This document shows positions 12,458-42,932 of a stretch of DNA of 42,932 nucleotides, piece after piece. The notes beneath the pieces were generated by a model. That model made no database searches and was not told where the DNA came from. It was given only the letters and a program-made list of their open reading frames with translations. How positions within the stretch are numbered: the first letter of the stretch is position 1; every line of letters begins with the position of its first letter. Source of the stretch: a virus. Location: the IMG/VR virus record IMGVR_UViG_3300006042_000002, positions 1 through 42,932 of that record; one strand, written 5' to 3'. The position numbers and the translations under genes are program-made.

Positions 12458-14377
12458 TTACACCTTCTTGTATTTGGGACGCCAAAAACCTGCTGCATCC
12501 TGCTCGAAGTCACCAATGAGCATTGGTTCCCTCTTCTTCATCTCCACGACAATCCGGCTGAACACGTGAAGGATTTCTTCCTCCGCAGCAGGCTCACACC
12601 GCATCGTCATGACATGGCGAATCGCTCGGATGTTCCCCGTCCACACACCACCTGTCGCACATCCCATCCCAACGATACGGCGGAACAGAGAGGTGAGTTC
12701 CTTCTTCTGCTTGAAGGAGGACTCTGGTTTCAATTCGTCGGCCCAGACTGCCTCTAATACCTTGTACCACTCCTGTTGGGCACCAAAGGCACGTTGCATT
12801 ACAATCCGAGTCAATTCCTTCTTGTGTTCAACATCCAACGGAGTTGCCGTCTCATGTCCATTCCTGATACATTCCAAGATCACGTAAGGACTCCAGTGTA
12901 GGTAGTTCCTAGCGACGTCGTCCTCTCTTGCTGATCCCTGAATGTACGTCGGTTCCCAGTAAGGAATGTTTTCCCCGAACCGGATGAACCGCATCGAACC
13001 TTCCGAGATGGCCCACCCCGCTCGATGCCTGTTCATTTCCCCAGTAAATATGCGAGACACGTTCTCGATTGCAAACGAGTAGACAGCGTGCTCAAGAACA
13101 CTATTTCCACACCAAACCGGGTATCCGTTCCGTCGAACATACAAAACATGCTGCGTGTCTTCCGGCATCTGTGCACAAAACACCTCGCCAGACCAGTCTT
13201 CAACCCAACTAGTCCGGCCCTCAGAACCAGCGTACTTGTTGACTTCCGGCTTCAAACTCCGGGAGGATAAAATGGACATCTGAATGAGAGGCTTTGTTCC
13301 GTATGATGTCGGCCGGTCTTCCGGTCCGTACACTTTACGTACGTTAGCTGCGATCCCGACGTGTAAACAGAGTTGCATGATCTGACCGGAAAGAACCTCA
13401 CTGGTCGTGTGAAAAGAATCGTCGGCAACTCCTTCGTGGCCGTCTGACTGCATCAGACCTTCCAACAGGCCAGCAAGCCCGTCACGCGACGATTGAATCA
13501 AAACCCCCGAAGGGATGCACTTCTCGCCGTCGGCGTAGATTTCAGAGAACAGATGACGGTACGATGCCGGGAATCCCAAAGAGTACCGATCCGTACCGTC
13601 GTATCTAATTTCCCACTCGCCCGGCTGCAATTGATTCAGTTGATCAACCACCCGGTACAGCCACGTCACTTTCCTGGGACGACGAAGCCGGAATCGAACG
13701 GTAAGGCCACTCTCGTAACTCCCGTCGCCGATTGAAAATCCGAGCAACCGCAGCACATCCGCCGGGTATCCCACCTCGCAAGTGGAGTCCCACGTTTGGG
13801 CCGATTTCAAATAAGCGTGGGAGCCAGCGTCAAGCGAGTCTGCTCGAATCAGCTTAAAGTCTTCACGCTTGCGCCCGTTTCTAGTTGTAGTGGGGCAAAC
13901 ATACATCTGGTGGTTAGGAGTGACCAGCAGGTCAACCCCGCGGGTTTCCACCCGATACATGCGTCCGGTGTAATCGACGGCGGTCACCGCATCCGGACGG
14001 CAGTACACCAAACCGCCTGATTTATTCAACGTAGCCAGGTAATCCTGCCGAGTGACTTCTGGCCACGGCTTCCACCCGGCAGACGTCAACACGTCGGTTT
14101 CCGAGTCATAACATCCGTGGCCGGTCTTGAGAATATTATCGATGTACTCGCCCCAGTCAGAACGGACCTTCGACAGGTTCGGATTTTGAGTCGTATCGAA
14201 ACTTAAATAACATCGTTTGGCCGATACACCAATCGTCAACGCGGAGTCAGTCACCGTTTCCGGCGGGGGAAACGTGTAATCCTTGACTCCCTTGAACTCC
14301 AGCCATCGCTTCATTTCGTCGCGGTCGGCTGTCGTCTTCTGGATGAAAAAGATTTCAATGGGAACTTTGGTCGGCAT
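12458..14377 (-). CDS. thyX: Flavin-dependent thymidylate synthase ThyX with intein
   Basis: 639 residues from the ATG at 14377, preceded by GAGGGG and promoter 14405-14433; longer starts lie upstream of that promoter. N-extein residues 1-88 end in KTGHG. Residues 89-425 are an intein. The C-extein starts SVLEHAVYSFAI, restoring the ThyX GHGSVLEHA element after splicing. The signature follows as NRHRAGWAISEGSMRF, a variant of RHRxxSxxxxSxRY with one extra residue. The enzyme methylates dUMP to dTMP using FAD, NADPH and methylene-THF. Upstream Dcd would help supply dUMP. Confidence 0.93.
   Translation of the reverse strand: MPTKVPIEIFFIQKTTADRDEMKRWLEFKGVKDYTFPPPETVTDSALTIGVSAKRCYLSFDTTQNPNLSKVRSDWGEYIDNILKTGHGCYDSETDVLTSAGWKPWPEVTRQDYLATLNKSGGLVYCRPDAVTAVDYTGRMYRVETRGVDLLVTPNHQMYVCPTTTRNGRKREDFKLIRADSLDAGSHAYLKSAQTWDSTCEVGYPADVLRLLGFSIGDGSYESGLTVRFRLRRPRKVTWLYRVVDQLNQLQPGEWEIRYDGTDRYSLGFPASYRHLFSEIYADGEKCIPSGVLIQSSRDGLAGLLEGLMQSDGHEGVADDSFHTTSEVLSGQIMQLCLHVGIAANVRKVYGPEDRPTSYGTKPLIQMSILSSRSLKPEVNKYAGSEGRTSWVEDWSGEVFCAQMPEDTQHVLYVRRNGYPVWCGNSVLEHAVYSFAIENVSRIFTGEMNRHRAGWAISEGSMRFIRFGENIPYWEPTYIQGSAREDDVARNYLHWSPYVILECIRNGHETATPLDVEHKKELTRIVMQRAFGAQQEWYKVLEAVWADELKPESSFKQKKELTSLFRRIVGMGCATGGVWTGNIRAIRHVMTMRCEPAAEEEILHVFSRIVVEMKKREPMLIGDFEQDAAGFWRPKYKKV
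13103..14113 (-). other. LAGLIDADG-type intein inside ThyX
   Basis: 337 residues. The N-terminal splice block is CYDSETDVLTSAGWKPW, block B GVDLLVTPNHQMY, and the endonuclease-type motifs are RLLGFSIGDG and LAGLLEGLMQSDG. The C-terminal blocks are VLYVRRNGYPVWCGN followed by extein Ser. Cys1, the block B TxxH, terminal Asn and +1 Ser support splicing. The usual penultimate His is replaced by Gly (CGN), which is known in some active inteins. Both dodecapeptides keep their acidic residues, so homing activity is possible. The insertion is at the GHG/S site next to conserved dUMP/FAD-binding residues. Confidence 0.88.
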
Positions 14378-14404
14378 GTCGCCCCTCACAAATGTGGTAT
14401 CGGT

Positions 14405-14433
14405 AGTATGGGACACGAATTGCTGAAAGGCAA
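14405..14433 (-). promoter_or_regulatory. Sigma70-like promoter for thyX
   Basis: Minus strand TTGCCT (14428-14433), 17-bp spacer, CATACT (14405-14410). The -35 region continues TTTCAG, matching the shared phage promoter element seen at 20704, 27163, 36620 and 39879. Confidence 0.65.
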
Positions 14434-14450
14434 ATTTTACAAAGGGGAAA

Positions 14451-15575
14451 TTATCCGCATCCCGAACTGGACTGGCAATCTTGACACTGTAAGCAGGTTC
14501 CGACCCGAACGACCCGAATGCTTCCACAGTTCGTACAGGGATCGCCGGTGAAGCCCATTTCCCTTGCTGCCTGAATCGAAGTTCCTTCCAGGGGAGTCAT
14601 TTCGGACCACAACGCCCTCCACCTCGGGGTGTGATTCGGTGCGTCGTAAGTCCGGACAGGTCGATTGATGAGAAGATGTGCCCCCCACTCGGTCAGTTTC
14701 TCGACTACACCCTCACATCCGTGGACGGCAGGCTCATCCGGGGCATTGATTGTGACCCGCTGTCCGACCTGGAGAGTAGGCGACTTCATTCGAGAAACCT
14801 CTCGCTTGTGCCTCGTGTAGCGATTCGTCATCTGGGCACGAGTTCTCTTCAACTCTTTACCAATGTCCCGAAGTGTGCGTCCGTCCGCTACTCCCAACAC
14901 CATCACTCGTGCCTCACGAGCCGTCCACGATTTGTGACGCTTCGCCACTGGGGAGGAGACTCGCGTGCGGACATTCTTGTAGCACGTCCGACATACACCA
15001 CGCCGAAAGATTGTCTTCTCTTTCTGGCAAGAGGGACAGACACCCTTCTTGCCCCTGCCCGTGGCGTGACACTCGACAATTCGGGTATGCCGCGAGCGGT
15101 TCCCAACCTGACCTGCACACGATGCCTGGCAAAACCGTTGATCAATTTTATTCTGAACGAAAGGGTGGTTGCACCAAGCACACTCCAACACCACGACAGG
15201 CTTCTTGGTATGCTCACGGGGCCGTTCACCTACTCTCCGTCCATTTGCAAGGCAAGAGCATTTTCTAGAACAGAAAAAAATCCTCTTATGAGGAATTACT
15301 TCAAACTCTGCACCACACTCTTCGCATTTGCGAAATACAACCTCACGAGTCTTCTTGACGACATCAAATCGTTTCCGAATGGTGACGATTCCCGAAGCAG
15401 CGTCGGGACGTCCACGACCAAACCGAAAGCCGATGTTCCCGCCAATCCGTTCTGTTCGCTGCTCTTCAATCCCCAATCGCGAGAATCCGTCACTCTCTTC
15501 GAGGGATTCCCAGAACTCCTGCATTTCTTCGCTAGGAGTCCAGTATTCCCAGGATGGAGGGAATTCTTCGGGCAT
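14451..15575 (-). CDS. Multi-zinc-finger DNA-binding-like protein with RNR-type tail
   Basis: 374 residues; ATG at 15575 behind AGGAG. Three cysteine modules occur in order: CEECGAEFEV...FCSRKC, CAWCNHPFV...FCQASC and CPSCQKEKT...CRTCYKN. They resemble zinc knuckles that accompany homing endonucleases. A Myb-like helix-turn-helix (SWTAREARVMVLGVADGRTL) follows, then a KOW/SH3-like strand region. The last 30 residues (MGFTGDPCTNCGS...GTCLQCQDC...GCG) match the zinc-ribbon tail normally found at the C-terminus of B12-dependent ribonucleotide reductases. No RNR catalytic domain is present. It lies between dcd and thyX. Confidence 0.75.
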   Translation of the reverse strand: MPEEFPPSWEYWTPSEEMQEFWESLEESDGFSRLGIEEQRTERIGGNIGFRFGRGRPDAASGIVTIRKRFDVVKKTREVVFRKCEECGAEFEVIPHKRIFFCSRKCSCLANGRRVGERPREHTKKPVVVLECAWCNHPFVQNKIDQRFCQASCAGQVGNRSRHTRIVECHATGRGKKGVCPSCQKEKTIFRRGVCRTCYKNVRTRVSSPVAKRHKSWTAREARVMVLGVADGRTLRDIGKELKRTRAQMTNRYTRHKREVSRMKSPTLQVGQRVTINAPDEPAVHGCEGVVEKLTEWGAHLLINRPVRTYDAPNHTPRWRALWSEMTPLEGTSIQAAREMGFTGDPCTNCGSIRVVRVGTCLQCQDCQSSSGCG

Positions 15576-20479: not shown

Positions 20480-20481
20480 AG

Positions 20482-20555
20482 TGGTAACGCCGGGACTCGA
20501 ACCCGGAACATCAGGGTTAGAAACCCCGTGCTCTATCCATTTGAGCTACGCTACC
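20482..20555 (-). tRNA. tRNA-Arg (UCU)
   Basis: A complete 74-nt cloverleaf on the minus strand. Acceptor GGTAGCG/CGTTACC, U8-A9, D-arm GCTC...GAGC, anticodon arm CGGGG-TTTCTAA-CCCTG giving anticodon TCT with U33, variable ATGTT, T-arm CCGGG-TTCGAGT-CCCGG, discriminator A. CCA is not encoded. It reads AGA, a codon likely to be rare in a GC-rich planctomycete host and useful to the phage. Transcribed from the promoter at 20681-20709. Confidence 0.95.
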
Positions 20556-23659: not shown

Positions 23660-24370
23660 TTATGTTCCTGCCAGTTCAAAGGTCAACGCATCCAGCCCTA
23701 CTAACTGCCGTCCGAACGCCACACACGCCTGCGAGATGTCTTCGTGAGCAAGTTCTTCTGTATCGTACTGATAGTCTTGAAAATCTACTTCAGAAGGATA
23801 CGTATAGTCAACTCTCCCCTTGAGCAGCATCTTGAAGGACATCGGCAGGGCAGTTCCTGTCCCATCGTGGTGAATTCTGAGGGATGTCCCAATCCGAATA
23901 AAAGTACCCGGACGTTGCAGATATCCCCCCACAACTAAATCCGTCAACTTCACATGCTGAACCGGATGATGACGAAAGATCACCTTCGCCAGACGCATGA
24001 ACTCCATAACGGTAATTTCGATTCGATGAAAGAAGCCACGACGGAACTCCCACGCATTCATTGACCCAACGAGAGGACTCCCTACTTTGTCCCACGTCTT
24101 TGACCAGTGATACAGATCCTTCGACCACGCTGGATGAAGTAACTCAGCCGAACGCTTCACGAGCGGAACGGCGGAATTCTCGCACATCTCGCGGTTGTGG
24201 TAACTCAGAAAGTAACTGGAATCGAATGTCGCCAGTTGACACTGAACACGAATGAACTCGGCTTTCTCGGGCTGGTTGTTCTCGTCCAACCAGTCAGCGT
24301 AGATGAGCCGCACGTCGTTGTCGGTCGGATTAAGGAGAATCCCCTGATGGAGTGCTTCGCCGTCAGTCAT
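23660..24370 (-). CDS. TIGR02996-domain protein
   Basis: 236 residues; ATGA overlap with the upstream gene fixes the start at 24370. The N-terminal domain reads NPTDNDVRLIYADWLDENNQ, then AEFIRVQCQLA. In the middle EFRRGFFHRIEI matches the RGFxxxV motif of the family. No zinc knuckle is present, unlike the copies at 420 and 30365. It lies directly downstream of the helicase but is separately coupled to the gene at 24367-25074. Confidence 0.85.
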   Translation of the reverse strand: MTDGEALHQGILLNPTDNDVRLIYADWLDENNQPEKAEFIRVQCQLATFDSSYFLSYHNREMCENSAVPLVKRSAELLHPAWSKDLYHWSKTWDKVGSPLVGSMNAWEFRRGFFHRIEITVMEFMRLAKVIFRHHPVQHVKLTDLVVGGYLQRPGTFIRIGTSLRIHHDGTGTALPMSFKMLLKGRVDYTYPSEVDFQDYQYDTEELAHEDISQACVAFGRQLVGLDALTFELAGT

Positions 24371-25074
24371 TTCACTTCCTCCAAGACTCGATTCCACGAC
24401 CCGTCATCTTCCCCCGCCCATCGGATAAGGATTCCCTTGAGGTAACTAGATGCCAGGTCATGCGTTGGCGTCCACGTATGGGGAACCAGATCTCCTGACC
24501 ACTCTGCCCACCTTCCGTACTTACGATGAACCGACTTGAAGAAATCCGTCAGGTATCCCGCCACATCCAAGTAGACGACCAGTTCCCGATAAGCGTCCTT
24601 CACTTTCGGATCGGTCGACGTGGCTAGTTTGGACTTGAAGGACTTCAGGTTCTGAACCGAACGGCAGACAACACCCCGAAGTTGTTTCTCGGTGTTGACG
24701 AGCCAAGTCAGTTCCTGAGTCATTTCCAGAACGTCCCTTTCCTCCTGAGACAGTTCCGCCTGTTTTCCGTCAAGCAACACGGCTCGTTCAATCTCCTCCC
24801 CGATCCAGTCCCAGTTGTTACGAAAGTCGTCCCCGCTCTGGACCTTCGGACGTTCGATCTTGAGTTGGATGTACTTGTTTACACGGGTGACGACGACTTC
24901 TTCTCCATGCTGATTGATGAGAAGCTCGAACGCCTTCTCCCAACGGGCTTGACGCTTGCGGGTCCACCCCATCGCCTGAATGTGATCCCGAATCTTTTCG
25001 GCCATGCCGCGTGCGAGAATTCCCGCTCTGTCTTGCTTGGCGGTCCCGAAGTCGATGTCGAAAGTGTCATCCAT
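24367..25074 (-). CDS. Hypothetical helical protein
   Basis: 235 residues from the ATG at 25074 with GGGGAAG in front; it overlaps the upstream gene by 8 bases. The frame extends to 25254, but that part overlaps the neighbour. Predicted mostly helical, with charged segments (MGWTRKRQARWEKAFELLIN, LDGKQAELSQEERDVLEM) and a C-terminal region with several aromatics. No domain is recognised. It lies upstream of the helicase in the same run of genes, so a replication accessory role is possible. Confidence 0.65.
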   Translation of the reverse strand: MDDTFDIDFGTAKQDRAGILARGMAEKIRDHIQAMGWTRKRQARWEKAFELLINQHGEEVVVTRVNKYIQLKIERPKVQSGDDFRNNWDWIGEEIERAVLLDGKQAELSQEERDVLEMTQELTWLVNTEKQLRGVVCRSVQNLKSFKSKLATSTDPKVKDAYRELVVYLDVAGYLTDFFKSVHRKYGRWAEWSGDLVPHTWTPTHDLASSYLKGILIRWAGEDDGSWNRVLEEVK

Positions 25075-25576
25075 CTTTCTTCCCCACCAAAACCTTCTGG
25101 AGTGCCAGTCGGGTCTTGTTAATCCAGTCCATGTAAAGAGCATCCAGATCGTCACCCATTGCCACGGCACCGCCAGTTTCCATGATCTGCACAGCCCCGT
25201 CCACCACACGATTCTTGATCGCGTTGTCGTACCGGATGCCCGCGACCATCGCATCGAACATATCAGTACAGGCGGAAATCAACTTGGCGTTGGCTCTCCC
25301 TCTCCGGTCTTCCGTGCCCGATGTAATCACGAAGACGTGAGCCAGTTCTGACCATGCGTTCCTTCCTGACGCACTGTCAATCTTGGCGTAGGGAACGTGA
25401 CTTTCCCGATCATCGTGGTAGAGTACTTCCTGCTCCTCGAAATCCGGAAACTCGACTGTCCACGGACCCGGAGAGAACTGTGGATAAATGGAATCCACAT
25501 CACACAAGTCCGATTCCAGCTTCGGATCGATTGGCACAATTTCCAGTTTCGGATTGATGGGAACGATTTCAGACAT
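25067..25576 (-). CDS. Phage APW/ANA-type hypothetical protein
   Basis: 169 residues from the ATG at 25576 (TGATG overlap; a GTG one codon earlier is possible). After a repeated N-terminal element (EIVPINPKL, then EIVPIDPKL) comes GPWTVEF, a variable strand region, and GRANAKLISACTDMFDAM. This (G/A)PW...ANAxLIxAxxxM pattern is a widespread phage family of unknown function. A shorter relative lies at 35661-35978. Confidence 0.7.
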   Translation of the reverse strand: MSEIVPINPKLEIVPIDPKLESDLCDVDSIYPQFSPGPWTVEFPDFEEQEVLYHDDRESHVPYAKIDSASGRNAWSELAHVFVITSGTEDRRGRANAKLISACTDMFDAMVAGIRYDNAIKNRVVDGAVQIMETGGAVAMGDDLDALYMDWINKTRLALQKVLVGKKDG

Positions 25577-26133
25577 CACGAGGTCTCCATTGGATTGATT
25601 TCAACGACAGGCTTCTTGCTATCCATCCCCATTCGCATCAGGGGCTGCTCCGACTCTAGCACGGGACTAACCATCTTGCTGGTAAAAGAACTGAAACAGC
25701 GAAAATCCTGCACGAATCCTTTCCACAAAGAAATTTCCATCGAACAGGCGTAAATCTTCGATTCATTCCGGGAACGCCACCCCACACCTTCCAGACCAAT
25801 TCGCATCCACACCTTGCGTCCATTGACCATAAAAATGGGATTTCCCTGAATGTACGAGTCCATCGAACCCACGCGATACGGCTTGTGAAGCTTCAAGGTC
25901 GCGGGAACAAGTCTCTTCCAGTTGTCACTGACCCACTTGTACCCGGCTCGGGGCATTCGATCCGTGCCTCCTACTTTCATCGAGCAGGACACTCGTATGA
26001 ATTCAACTGTCGCCTTTACCAAATCGTCCGTGTCCGGGGATGCGTGTTCCTCCAGCCAGTCCCCATACATCAGCCGGGGCACGTCTTCCTGGGGATTGGC
26101 TCGAATCGCATCGAGTAGTGACTGACATTCCAT
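25576..26133 (-). CDS. TIGR02996-domain protein
   Basis: 185 residues. The domain reads IRANPQEDVPRLMYGDWLEE, then VEFIRVSCSM after a short insert. WKGFVQDFRCFSSF near residue 150 is the family's RGFxxxV segment with Lys replacing Arg. The ATG at 26133 is preceded by AAGGGG about 12 bases upstream. It is the head of a group with the APW-type protein. The C-terminus lacks the PGIEF end seen in longer copies. Confidence 0.82.
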   Translation of the reverse strand: MECQSLLDAIRANPQEDVPRLMYGDWLEEHASPDTDDLVKATVEFIRVSCSMKVGGTDRMPRAGYKWVSDNWKRLVPATLKLHKPYRVGSMDSYIQGNPIFMVNGRKVWMRIGLEGVGWRSRNESKIYACSMEISLWKGFVQDFRCFSSFTSKMVSPVLESEQPLMRMGMDSKKPVVEINPMETS

Positions 26134-27176: not shown

Positions 27177-27596
27177 TCACTTTATTTCGGCCAACTCGTC
27201 ACATTCGGAATTCTTGTCTCTTGGTATCCACTGAACTTCCCATTCTGTATCAATCTTCGCCAACAGCTTCCAAGCAGTCTCCCGAAGTGGTTTCAGATGG
27301 TCCGCCTTGATCTTCCAGTTGCCCACCAGCGTCTCCAGGACGAGCTTGGAGTCACCTTCAATGCGAAGGGTGTCAGGTGATGTACAGAGACAGGCAATCC
27401 ATCGTAGGCCAGCGATGAGGGCTTCGTATTCCGCTGTGTTGTTGGTTTGGGTGGGTAGTCTGGAGTTACCCCGACCCTTTGCGATGGGGTGATTGTCAAG
27501 AGTGTGTAAGGTCCATCCGAATGACGCTCTGGCTTCGGGTGTTCCATTACCCAGGCAACCACCATCGAAGCGAAGGATCAGGTTCAGGAGTTTCAT
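27177..27596 (-). CDS. rnhA: Ribonuclease HI
   Basis: 139 residues. The four acidic residues are in place: RFDGGCLGN (D11), NNTAEYEALI (E56), EGDSKLV (D82) and SECDELAE (D133). The WIPRDKNSECDELA segment replaces the usual WVxGHxGxxxNExAD, so the loop histidine is absent; this is common in archaeal-type RNase HI. It should remove RNA primers or R-loops during phage replication. It is preceded by the 800-base noncoding stretch, from which it may be transcribed. Confidence 0.9.
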   Translation of the reverse strand: MKLLNLILRFDGGCLGNGTPEARASFGWTLHTLDNHPIAKGRGNSRLPTQTNNTAEYEALIAGLRWIACLCTSPDTLRIEGDSKLVLETLVGNWKIKADHLKPLRETAWKLLAKIDTEWEVQWIPRDKNSECDELAEIK

Positions 27597-27599
27597 GAT

Positions 27600-28345
27600 T
27601 TACCTTAATTTCCAATCCCTGTACGTACGGGGGGGATTCCCCTGTCAGCAGCACTATTAGATGGCATCTAAGAGTAACTGTCTGATAGTAGGTGAGCTTA
27701 CCGGGTGATCTGCTCCAAAGCCCTTTAAATTGCCGTGTCTGGGTTTAGTAGCGGTGTTTTAGGATCAAAGTCCTTGTGCATTTTGTCACCGGGACGTATC
27801 CCCCCATTCGGGATCGACTACCTTCCGTTGCCCGGCATAAACCTTACCCGAAACTGGGCAGGTTAACCCGCGTTTCCCCATTAATGGACAACCCTTTGAC
27901 AGGTTCAATCCACCAGTTGTTTCCCCCGGATTTCGGTCCGGGGCAATCTGGCACTGCGGCTCCGACCTCGCAAAAGCAATAACCTGGCGATCTTTTAAAC
28001 CAGGTGGCTTCCCCCACGACAACCCTCCTCGCCTTCCGTGAGTGAGCACGGTTTCATCAGTCCGGGTAGGCACTGAACTCACGCAGCGGGCGGTTCCGGT
28101 TGGACTGGGGCACACTTCCGTTTTGGTTCAGGATGACGTCCGTGAGACTCACAACCTGCATCACTCGAAATCTTTTTGGGTACTTTGGATTTGCCTTGCC
28201 GAAATGCCGTTTGAAGTGCTATTCTTCAGTTACGGGAGTCCGGTCCGATTCACCGACATACCCACTGTCGAAACGGCGTGATGCACCGAATCTGACAGGC
28301 TCAGAAGGGAAGGGGCGAAAGCTCTTTCCCTTCTGTGTTTCATAG
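27600..28345 (-). ncRNA. Candidate large structured noncoding RNA
   Basis: The gap 27597-28407 (811 bases) has no plausible gene but many inverted repeats: AGAAGGGAA/TTCCCTTCT around a GGGCGAAAGCTC tip (28303-28334), CCCCGGA/TCCGGGG (27924-27943) inside a CCAG/CTGG outer stem, ACCTGG/CCAGGT (27982-28005), CCGTG/CACGG near 28040, GAAAC/GTTTC with inner GGTTAACC near 27850-27880, ATCCC/GGGAT near 27800-27816 and ACTATTAG/CTAAGAGT (27655-27677). A weak promoter (TTGATT-N17-TAACCT, minus) sits just before the first hairpin. Strand is inferred from neighbours. Large phage RNAs such as GOLLD and ROOL are the nearest known analogues. Confidence 0.45.
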
Positions 28346-28407
28346 GTTATTCACGCCACGAGCCAGAATCAAGCCTAAAATTCCGCCGCTTCTTCTTCCG
28401 CGTCGTT

Positions 28408-29253
28408 CTATTCTCTTGGAAGCACGAACTCGATTCCTGGCCATTCCTTATTCAAAAGCCGTTTTCTCACCACTTCTTCCAGAATGTCGTGATCCCTGGC
28501 TTGCTCCCAGCTTTCACGAGAAACAAGTTCTCGTCTTCGACAACCATCAAAACGACCGCAATACATCTTGTTTTCAGGGCTGTAGTTGACAACCAGACGA
28601 GGAATCGTGGACAGCGTCACCTTCCCGACCGGGTGGGCATCCGTGATCGCGTCCCCGTTATCTTTCCAGCCGTACTGCCCGTCCCAGGGACAGTGAACTT
28701 CCGAAATCAGCCCACGGTGGAAGAGAACACCCATGTTGGGCACGAAGGGCAGCGTGCCGGAATTGATGCAGTATCCTGCTAGAGCAGGAAAACTCCAAGA
28801 AATCCAGTTGCGTTCGTAATCCTTGACTTTTCCGGACATGAGCGTGGACTGGCCCAGCAGAATCGCGTTAGCGTGCATTCGGTCTTGTTCAGCATTCGCA
28901 CAGGGATTGCAGAAGCCACAATTCCCACGGAATACTTTGTCTACAGGCGAATTTCCGTGGAATTCGTCGTAAATCGTCTCGTATCGTGGATTCCGGCACA
29001 GGAACCCCTTCGCAATCTTCACCTGAAGTCGAACGAACGTGGCCCAGTTTTCCTGCCCGTCACGCTCCAGAGCATCTGCGAACTGCTCCCGCCGTTCATC
29101 CGACGTCGGAGACGCCAACACACGCTGTCGGGCGGCATCCAGGGGCTTCTCTTGGTCGTCCAAGAAATCCGCGTAGATACCCCGACAGGCACGCTGTTCC
29201 TCAGCCGTGGTCAGGGAACGAATCTTGGTCAGGAAGTCGGTGGAAGACGTCAT
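28408..29253 (-). CDS. TIGR02996-domain protein, long form
   Basis: 281 residues; TAATG overlap with the upstream gene. The N-terminus has RACRGIYADFLDDQEK, a variant domain core, then a second related segment (REQFADALERDGQENWATFV, RLQVKIAKG). The middle carries CGFCNPCA, and HRGLISEVHCPW is the family RGFxxxV motif. The end is WPGIEFVLP, matching 420-1271. Just after the TAG the frame continues NDAEEEAAEF before another TAG, perhaps a relic or a readthrough tail. Confidence 0.82.
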   Translation of the reverse strand: MTSSTDFLTKIRSLTTAEEQRACRGIYADFLDDQEKPLDAARQRVLASPTSDERREQFADALERDGQENWATFVRLQVKIAKGFLCRNPRYETIYDEFHGNSPVDKVFRGNCGFCNPCANAEQDRMHANAILLGQSTLMSGKVKDYERNWISWSFPALAGYCINSGTLPFVPNMGVLFHRGLISEVHCPWDGQYGWKDNGDAITDAHPVGKVTLSTIPRLVVNYSPENKMYCGRFDGCRRRELVSRESWEQARDHDILEEVVRKRLLNKEWPGIEFVLPRE

Positions 29254-30364: not shown

Positions 30365-31234
30365 TCAGCAGAATGAACACCCATCGTATCGGTCTTCAGG
30401 TTCTTCAAAAGGGATGACGCCATCGGCCAGCAGGTCGGCCCACACGTCCGCTTCACTTCGGTGTTTGTTCGGTTCGACCGGAGTTTGTCGCACTCCATGA
30501 CGGGTATCAGTGGTTCGCAACCATCCTACTTCTGTCGGATTGTAATGAGGATTGCTGGGAACTGCGTCCGTAACACAGACTTCCATTACGTCTGGGTGAT
30601 GTTGAATGACAGAAAGTAGCCAATCCGACGGCACTTTTCCTGTATAGACCTTCCCTCTTCCGTGGCATATCTCACAGTCACTTTTTGCACCCTTTCCCCT
30701 TACCAAGCACGAGCAGTTCACTTCGTCTTCCTGAACACACTCCTCCAACGTCGCGTAGACTCGTTTCATGCCACGGTGATACTCGACTTTGTGTTTATAA
30801 CTCCACGACTTCGCTTTTGAACTATATCCTTCGGTTATGGGGATACTCTGCGTCAGTCCGCCCGCATCGCCAGTTCCGTAACAAGAATGACAGCGAACTG
30901 TAAACCCCAAAGAGTCCGTCCGATTGCTCTTGCCACTACCACCACACTTTTCACACACCGGCCCCTTCCGCCACGTATCGGCGTACTGTTTGAGAATGGC
31001 GGATTCACGTCTCTCCAACTCGACGTACTCAGGATTTGGCACCTGAGAATACGATTCATCACGGTCAAAAGACTTATATGTGTGTGGCATGAGACACTGA
31101 ATCTGAATCAATTCCCCTTTCGCCTGTTGTGATTCGTCACCGTGCTCAAGCAACCAATCCGCTAGCATAAGCCGGGGCATGTCCTCATCCGGGGCGGAAT
31201 GTATGGCGTTGATCAAAGCGTCGTAGTCACTCAC
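30365..31234 (-). CDS. TIGR02996-domain protein with DnaJ-like zinc knuckles
   Basis: 289 residues from a GTG in a GTGA overlap (31231-31234). The domain reads SAPDEDMPRLMLADWLLEHG, then KGELIQIQCLMP. Two zinc modules follow: CEKCGGSGKSN with CHSCYGTGDAGG, and CSCLVRGKG with CEICHGRGKVY, the CxxCxGxG repeat of DnaJ. HRGMKRVYATL is the RGF-like motif. The C-terminus is acidic and ends in CSFC. It is paired with the similar gene at 31231-32202. Confidence 0.85.
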   Translation of the reverse strand: MSDYDALINAIHSAPDEDMPRLMLADWLLEHGDESQQAKGELIQIQCLMPHTYKSFDRDESYSQVPNPEYVELERRESAILKQYADTWRKGPVCEKCGGSGKSNRTDSLGFTVRCHSCYGTGDAGGLTQSIPITEGYSSKAKSWSYKHKVEYHRGMKRVYATLEECVQEDEVNCSCLVRGKGAKSDCEICHGRGKVYTGKVPSDWLLSVIQHHPDVMEVCVTDAVPSNPHYNPTEVGWLRTTDTRHGVRQTPVEPNKHRSEADVWADLLADGVIPFEEPEDRYDGCSFC

Positions 31235-32202
31235 TTTTGTTCCTCTGTGATCTTGTACCACAACACAGACTTCAAAGCCTTTGACAGGGCGGTGTTGGCA
31301 AGTTCGATAGTCTTGTAGTCAACGTGCGGCAGTTTTTGCCATATGATGTTAGGTATTCTAGCTTGATCCACCGTCTGATGAGCAGACTCGCCGTACCAAG
31401 AGAATCCGTGCCGTGATTCCGCTGGCACCCGATCCACCGGCATCACACCCGTGAGCGTGGGGCTGAAGTTGGCGTGCAGGTAGCGGGCGTAGTCAGTAAG
31501 TTGCCAGTGCTGCCCTGTTCGATCTTCCCCATCGCCGTTACATCGAAGATTGAAATCGCCACCGTGCCCATGCTGAGAGCACCCCTCGCCTGAACAGTAG
31601 CGGCAGTGACTTGGCTCCAGCACGCTCGCAATCGTTGGCACACTGACGCAAGCCACGTAGCCCGCTCGCCAAGTGCAGGGGGCTTTGCCTGTTCCGGAGC
31701 AGTCGGGACAAGGCATTTCTCTGACATGCCCTACCCCGCGCCCTTGACCGTTACAGGTGACGCACTTCGGCAACCAATCGGGGTTTGCCGCGATGATGGC
31801 GGACTCGCGGTTCGCCCAACCAACCTTCTGCTGGCTACTCGCGCTGCCCCACAGGGCATTAGCGGCGACTTGGACGCGGATTAGCTCAGCCCGGTCAGCC
31901 CGGCTCGTGTCGGGGACGAAGCCTGTACCTTTATTGTTGTCGTCTAGAATTCCTCCATTAGTTCGCTTGCCGCCGCAGTTCATGCATGGAACGTGGAAGC
32001 AGGAGCCAGGTTGACCGGCTAAAAGCCAACCCAAACCACCACCGTTTTCTGTCTTGTAGTTTGGTGCACACTTCGGGCACGTCTTATACACGCCCTCACT
32101 AGTTTCTTGTAGATGGTCCGCTAACGCCAATCGCAACCCTTCGTCATCGGGGCTTTCGGCAATGGCACGCATAAAAACGTCATCATCGGTAGTTGTGGTC
32201 AT
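31231..32202 (-). CDS. TIGR02996-domain protein with several zinc knuckles
   Basis: 323 residues. The domain is split: ESPDDEGLRLALADHLQETS, then a cysteine-rich insert (CPKCAPN, CMNCGGKR), then RAELIRVQVAANAL. More knuckles follow: CVTCNGQGRG, CPDCSGTGK, CRYCSGEGC and CNGDGED. RAGYVACVSVP is the RGF-like motif. The zinc insert inside the domain is unusual compared with the other copies. It is coupled by ATGA and GTGA joins to both neighbours. Confidence 0.82.
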   Translation of the reverse strand: MTTTTDDDVFMRAIAESPDDEGLRLALADHLQETSEGVYKTCPKCAPNYKTENGGGLGWLLAGQPGSCFHVPCMNCGGKRTNGGILDDNNKGTGFVPDTSRADRAELIRVQVAANALWGSASSQQKVGWANRESAIIAANPDWLPKCVTCNGQGRGVGHVREMPCPDCSGTGKAPCTWRAGYVACVSVPTIASVLEPSHCRYCSGEGCSQHGHGGDFNLRCNGDGEDRTGQHWQLTDYARYLHANFSPTLTGVMPVDRVPAESRHGFSWYGESAHQTVDQARIPNIIWQKLPHVDYKTIELANTALSKALKSVLWYKITEEQK

Positions 32203-41781: not shown

Positions 41782-42932
41782 TTAAGGTTTGAGGGTGAGT
41801 GGTTCTTTATCGAACATCTGGAACGGATCGCGTTTGGGTTCACTGAACGACGTCTTCGGAACCGGGAAGTCCGTCTTGGTCTGAATCACGCTCCGACACG
41901 CCCACACGGAACCAAAGTCCGGTCCCTTGAACAGAGATTCGGGGATGATACAGTTCCCGGCCCCCAGAGTGCCGTCCCGCGAGTTGCCCCATCCCGCCCC
42001 CCACGAATTCCGGATACGCAGTGCCCACGTACCATCAGCGAGTTGAATCAGCCCATACGCACAGAGAGCGTGTCCACCCGACCCGCCGCGTCCCTGCCGG
42101 GGCAGGACGCCGTTGGAATCGACATCGAAGTTGTCGTACCACGCAATCGCGATCTGTGCAAAGAATCCCTGTTGTACAGCAGACGCCAGGGCGTCGAAGT
42201 CGTCGCACAGGTACGCTTCCGCGAATCGATTGGGCTTACGGGCTGCGATGGTGGCCGCGTCGTTGTACCGCCTGCCGTTCCAGATGTACGGAATCATCGA
42301 AGTCGGTGCGACACCATTCGTCAGGAGTTCGACCAGATTATCTTCGGGCATACTGCCCTGGTCACGCCCACCGTTGACCCGGCTGTACAAGTCGCCCGCA
42401 CTGGCGTAGATGTACGGCAATCCCGCCTGGTTCCGACACGCTTCCCACACTGTACAAGCCGAAGAACTCGCACACTGGCCAATGCCGTCCTGATCGTGAA
42501 CAGGAGGCAGGAATGCACTGAGATTAACCGGCTTCCACTTGTCGCGGGGAATGAGGGGGACGCTGGGGGTTTCACCAAACTTGACCCACTTCAACTTCGG
42601 CTTGGCAAGGCTTGCCCCCAGTGCCCGTTTCCCATTGTGGAGATCGAACGCGGCAATGAAGGCATCATCGGTCGTCGGGCAGGCGAGATCCTTGATGATC
42701 TTCCCATCCACGTCAAGTAGCCAAAGCCAGGGGAGTGTCTTCCCCACTGCAAGGGCTTTGAACTGAATCGCAGCCGGGTCGTCTCCATCGGCATTGATTG
42801 CAATGAGTCGGTGTGTCAGTCCCGACGCCCGATAGAAGCTCGCGACCTTCGGACTGCCCAGGATATCGCCACGCCACGCCTGAGCCTTCGCGGTGTCCTC
42901 CACAACAACGAATCGCGACACCTTCCCGGTTG
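41782..42932 (-). CDS. Papain-type (C1) cysteine protease with thioredoxin-like N-domain, cut by right edge
   Basis: 379 residues from a GTG at 42921, but the frame stays open to the edge (TGK precedes), so the true start probably lies outside. Residues 20-95 resemble a thioredoxin-like fold without CxxC (LTHRLIAINADGDD, LPWLWLLDVDGKIIKDL). The C1 peptidase core has DQDGIGQCASSSACTVWE (Gln144, Cys150), GGHALCAYG (His284) and RIRNSWGAGWG (Asn305). Papain proteases are unusual in phages; a virion maturation, host-attack or lysis role is possible. Confidence 0.88.
   Translation of the reverse strand, partial: TGKVSRFVVVEDTAKAQAWRGDILGSPKVASFYRASGLTHRLIAINADGDDPAAIQFKALAVGKTLPWLWLLDVDGKIIKDLACPTTDDAFIAAFDLHNGKRALGASLAKPKLKWVKFGETPSVPLIPRDKWKPVNLSAFLPPVHDQDGIGQCASSSACTVWEACRNQAGLPYIYASAGDLYSRVNGGRDQGSMPEDNLVELLTNGVAPTSMIPYIWNGRRYNDAATIAARKPNRFAEAYLCDDFDALASAVQQGFFAQIAIAWYDNFDVDSNGVLPRQGRGGSGGHALCAYGLIQLADGTWALRIRNSWGAGWGNSRDGTLGAGNCIIPESLFKGPDFGSVWACRSVIQTKTDFPVPKTSFSEPKRDPFQMFDKEPLTLKP

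Follow-up and report, generated by a model that had tools for sequence, protein, structure and literature searches.

Gene-free gap and genomic context

The window, that is, the whole stretch of 42,932 nt analysed here, is a virus contig, and the stretches compared are identical to IMGVR_UViG_3300006178_000002 (65 kb). An identical copy of its DnaN-like protein is encoded on IMG/VR contig 3300027866_000003. The locus of interest is a gap without genes, with the following features:

27177-27596, minus strand: RNase H gene, directly 3' of the putative RNA (PF13456, 1.9e-12; phrog_531, 1.1e-8)
27597-28407, minus strand: gene-free gap holding the putative RNA; no coding signal, conserved blocks inside, strand assigned via wobble pairs in relatives
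28302-28335, no strand assigned: strongest hairpin of the gap, with 15-nt arms and a GAAA loop on the plus strand, where it is terminator-like
28408-29253, minus strand: gene of a TIGR02996-domain protein (domain match), directly 5' of the putative RNA

The 811-base gene-free stretch described in the first-pass annotation fits exactly between the two minus-strand genes, and the minus strand is also that of most genes near the gap. Clear coding bias was found in no frame, the codon log-odds across the gap being mostly near 0 in every frame versus about 0.22 for real genes. According to the gene calls of a simple ad hoc script, this is the largest real gap of the window, two longer 'gaps' in the script's list having been excluded because they contain known ORFs. 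The genome is not otherwise gapless, as had been stated, since other gaps of about 300-540 nt are present. A conserved reading frame, which the first-pass annotation had named as an argument against an RNA, was not found, since the frame is not kept between homologues. A small minus-strand ORF within 28057-28218 (MQVVSLTDVILNQNGS...) was rejected because the homologous DNA of a relative (L089) has an indel and the frame is lost. Past the TAG that ends the TIGR02996 gene, an acidic tail (NDAEEEAAEF) continues in frame until the next TAG (28408-28373, minus strand), which could be chance or possible readthrough.

TIGR02996 is a Gemmata-associated domain of unknown function, an association taken from the family name and a search. 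It is present in six window proteins, all of them encoded on the minus strand (420-1394, 23660-24397, 25576-26133, 28408-29253, 30365-31261, and 31231-32202), and the host of the virus is therefore probably a Gemmataceae-like or Gemmata-like planctomycete. Two of these six proteins also carry zinc-finger-like CxxC repeats. Regarding other genes of the window, the minus-strand ORF at 12458-14527 encodes a ThyX-like thymidylate synthase of 689 aa in which the Thy1 match is limited to residues 475-668, and the insert preceding this part shows an intein-like start and end (CYDSETDV... and GYPVWCGN, by eye). A phage-encoded papain-family cysteine protease (Peptidase_C1) is located at 41782-42921 on the minus strand.

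Folding of the window sequence

The first-pass annotation considered the gap to be packed with hairpins. The inverted repeats that it named all exist, and the best of them is longer than claimed (28302-28335, 15-nt arms and a 4-nt loop). The local folding is ordinary, with mean z-scores of 120-nt folds of -0.46 (plus) and -0.50 (minus) versus -0.34 and -0.16 elsewhere in the genome, and only hairpin 28302-28335 clearly stands out among the 120-nt segments of the gap; this hairpin may be part of something else than the RNA. Hairpin density was rejected as evidence for an RNA because the local z-scores are those of the background. The whole 811 nt fold gave z-scores of -2.65 on the plus strand and -1.0 on the minus strand (80 shuffles). 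Moreover, the weak minus-strand promoter that had been proposed was not recovered by a sigma-70 scan (0 found). The window belongs to the more divergent part of the family described below, and some helices are weak in it. Hairpin density and promoter are thus a weak basis for a structured RNA, and the support for it comes from sequence comparison with homologues.

Homologues and conserved blocks

Searched with BLAST against 398 genomes from the Gemmata-containing class, the gap gave a single match, of 42 bp and 88% (E 2.8e-6, a value that refers to that genome alone). This match, on contig G236:C1109, sits in another gene-free gap of a phage-like contig, adjoining a same-strand RNase H-like gene (by eye). 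The use of the G236 gap as query led to two further members, G038 and G280; the G280 contig is prophage-like, with integrase, ParB-like genes, and apparent terminase and sigma-like genes (annotation by eye). Two conserved blocks were defined, and the conserved and paired elements of the window, all on the minus strand, are listed here:

27768-27849: block A, conserved core, common to at least 120 viral contigs (R1, 76.2 bits)
28065-28165: block B, second conserved block, including the first homology found, 28116-28156 (R2, 79.3 bits)
27789-27835: core outer helix (27789-27793/27831-27835 and 27795-27796/27826-27827), paired in 99.8% of cells (76 distinct sequences)
27810-27823: core inner hairpin, loop with (nearly) invariant GGATC..A..YACC; covaries in relatives
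27794 with hairpin-loop position 27819: long-range contact, window positions assigned by hand
27840-27864: hairpin adjoining the core (27840-27844/27860-27864); by hand, relatives have hairpins of other sequence in the same place
27751-27871: helix enclosing the core (27751-27758/27865-27871), bulged, weak in the window and strong in relatives

The covariance models R1 and R2 correspond to the two conserved blocks and were built from hand-chosen segments of four members. The window is among these four, so its scores of 76.2 and 79.3 bits are not independent, and the independent link is the BLAST match to G236. R1 then found G257 (with an adjacent R2 match), G078, G227, and Limnoglobus roseus, and in a wider sample G112, G037, and G039. 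Overall, the 47-base core (27789-27835) recurs in prophages or phage-like contigs of ten Planctomycetota genomes (contexts by eye). Block B is common to L092, L096, L097, and L127, and by eye also to L129. Genomic R1 matches scoring under about 29 bits (L131-L133) were left out, and the BLAST matches L081-L088 and L095/L098 were rejected as chance or coding matches.

Among IMG/VR viral contigs, at least 120 match a pattern of the 3' half of the core, versus none for a complement control pattern of equal G+C content and length; a version of the pattern with T alone at the covarying site gave 36 matches. R1, which also demands the 5' helix strand, recognized 79 of 80 listed loci at E < 0.01. On the other hand, BLAST with the consensus core did not find it in 50,697 GenBank phages or 72,556 plasmids, 0 of 195 genomes matched in a Myxococcota sample, and no TIGR02996-like motif was found in 79 viral loci of the family.

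Several type-2 contigs (L193, L149, L143, and similar ones) are arranged alike on the RNA strand, where a helicase or small nuclease-like gene is followed by the RNA and then by a protein of ~90 aa starting MAKDLVLLRYTD. This common gene order suggests that they come from one widespread uncultivated virus group.

Covariation in the core

All core pairs together form in 99.5% of cells in 76 distinct sequences, which were collected with a pattern that fixed or restricted the 3' letters and left their 5' partners free. The covariation score is 0.236 versus 0.085 for shuffled alignments, with 0 of 500 as high, and slid versions of the pairing are only 29-59% paired. The 11 members collected ahead of the pattern search had already shown 98.3% of cells paired and a score of 0.336 versus 0.128. 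One outer-helix pair occurs as G-C in 45 and A-U in 30 sequences, and one pair of the inner hairpin takes four forms (A-U 31, U-A 19, C-G 10, G-C 8). In the window, the inner hairpin has 3 pairs only, and on the RNA strand one of these is a mismatch.

Furthermore, alignment columns 35 and 98 vary together without exception (A-U 66, G-C 9; 75 of 75), and this long-range contact agrees better with the sequences than does 35-109, the simple pair in the helix as drawn. For the window's own type, the helix enclosing the core is supported by a permutation test on 50 members (2.96 versus 2.02, sd 0.14). The covariation in homologues proposed as a check in the first-pass annotation is therefore present, far above shuffled and slid controls.

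Strand and complete fold in type-2 relatives

Thirteen close type-2 relatives could be aligned over about 270 nt. Their fold comprises eight helices, two of which form a pseudoknot, with 97.6% of cells paired, 13 doubly changed pairs, and a covariation reached in 0 of 500 shuffles; slid versions are 36-50% paired. It should be noted that, as these members are closely related, some of the changes are not independent of one another. In the 12-bp helix that surrounds the core, six pairs are doubly changed and one is a U.G in 13 of 13. Together with the core loop, which is likewise invariant, this U.G pair has the look of an active or binding site, and could be one.

These relatives also bear on the strand. 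On the complementary strand, which was used to build R1, the 12-bp helix of 12 distinct members shows 119 Watson-Crick, 0 G.U, and 20 A.C cells; an A.C cell is a G.U on the other strand. For all eight helices read on the RNA strand, the ratio of G.U to A.C is 20:5, and the consensus energy is -85.2 versus -71.7 for the opposite strand. Because of this wobble asymmetry and the consensus energies in type-2 relatives, the RNA is assigned to the minus strand of the window, the same as the flanking genes. Across the family, the RNA strand carries both flanking genes in 45 of 73 loci and 72% of the nearby coding sequence. There are contrary signs, as the window sequence itself folds better as the plus strand and hairpin 28302-28335 points the same way; the strand was decided on the type-2 relatives, not on the window. 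A plus-strand RNA, based on the global fold and terminator-like hairpins, had been considered and was withdrawn, because an invariant C.A pair and the consensus energies favour the other strand. A helix search without constraints over all members was too noisy on this question.

Comparison with known RNAs

Neither the window nor its relatives matched any Rfam 15 model, including ROOL and GOLLD (conserved 3' region), and on this point the first-pass annotation was right. Group I and II introns and known ribozymes gave no Rfam match either, even when 401 and 511 nt from two relatives were scanned at a permissive threshold. No tRNA or tmRNA was detected in the gap with ARAGORN and Rfam, and the window has a single tRNA, a tRNA-Arg (20481-20555), 7 kb away. 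No description of this RNA family was found in the literature searched, whose coverage was partial, with subscription papers mostly outside it.

Processive antitermination RNAs of the put/EAR type would lie co-directionally upstream of varied genes, and the put RNA consists of two short hairpins. The new RNA is likewise co-directional and upstream of varied genes; however, it is far more elaborate and matches no Rfam antitermination family.

ROOL (Rumen-Originating, Ornate, Large) is a phage- or prophage-borne RNA of several hundred nt, with many helices and pseudoknots and of unknown function, which is often found near tRNA islands, while GOLLD is a large phage-borne RNA, also of unknown function, with a conserved part plus a variable part (PMC12286853). 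The RNA described here resembles ROOL in being phage- or prophage-borne, large, many-helixed, and pseudoknotted. Nevertheless, it has no Rfam match at any threshold used, its core differs, it lies away from the window's sole tRNA instead of by a tRNA island, and the search of GenBank phages did not find it. With GOLLD it shares the large size, the phage origin, and the combination of conserved and variable parts, but it lacks an Rfam match, is smaller (the compact type fits in ~260-nt gaps), and has another core. Among described RNAs, ROOL and GOLLD are its nearest counterparts in kind, not by homology, and as far as tested the RNA falls outside both families.

Possible mode of action

The homologues in many viruses and prophages and their covarying helices support in substance the earlier proposal of a large structured phage RNA, possibly of a new class. 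Judging from these comparisons, the gap almost certainly holds a real, conserved structured RNA that is not in Rfam. Its size is not constant, since family gaps range from 211 to >1,000 nt and a compact version occurs in gaps of about 260 nt. The genes directly 3' of the RNA across loci encode RNase H, DNA methylases, HNH, lysozyme, DUF2924, SNF2 helicase, DnaB, or terminase, and those 5' of it encode ResIII/DEAD helicases, PD-(D/E)XK nucleases, or ParB; an RNase H-like gene (by eye) also adjoins the RNA in the L089/L092 relative. Such varied flanking genes argue against the control of one gene and for a trans-acting RNA. In seven type-2 members the core is about 70-121 nt from the next start codon, and with this short distance a role in cis would also fit. 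Action of the RNA in trans is about as likely as not.

The explanation that we favour overall, with moderate confidence, is that the locus carries a minus-strand member of an undescribed family of large structured phage RNAs working in trans. The RNA would be co-transcribed with the operon or made from its own promoter, would fold independently, and could then work in trans during infection, stand-alone or as an RNA-protein particle, as proposed for ROOL and GOLLD. Action in trans is inferred from the variable size of the RNA and from its position beside genes that are unrelated from virus to virus.

It is rather unlikely that the RNA is instead a cis-acting leader whose fold in the nascent transcript controls what lies downstream, either as a processive antitermination RNA (put/EAR type) or as a switch in which the helix CACCGCU/AGCGGUG competes with the 12-bp helix. 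The flanking genes are co-directional in most loci, the type-2 RNA ends close to the next start codon, and the competing helix does exist, but it covaries little (35 of 500 shuffles as high), the downstream genes are unrelated between viruses, and gap sizes vary widely.

A ribozyme, for instance a self-cleaving or processing one, seems improbable. The invariant U.G pair, in a helix that otherwise covaries freely, and the nearly invariant core letters could form a catalytic site; nevertheless, conserved wobbles serve as binding sites too, the RNA matches no Rfam ribozyme or intron family, and its flanks show no evident interrupted gene. Finally, it is very improbable that there is no RNA and that the gap is a decayed gene or else a DNA element serving as a replication origin or as a site of packaging or recombination, since, although the window's local fold scores are ordinary and inverted repeats that mimic RNA hairpins would covary too as simple DNA cruciforms, DNA hairpins do not explain paired positions that are far apart and crossing (pseudoknot, contact 35-98), the wobble asymmetry favours one strand, and homologues keep no reading frame.

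Implications

Few large ornate RNAs are known from phages, and what they do is still an open question. The family presented here occurs in at least 120 uncultivated viral contigs and in Planctomycetota prophages, yet it is missing from Rfam 15 and from the GenBank phages searched, so it seems to be a widespread new RNA class that has been overlooked so far. More tentatively, although this is less likely than not, it may represent a widespread trans-acting RNA machine of uncultivated phages, whose catalytic or ligand-binding core would have a new fold unlike known phage RNAs. The compact version, with its ~260-nt gaps, its conserved fold of ~270 nt, and its strong covariation, makes work on the structure and function of this family practical.
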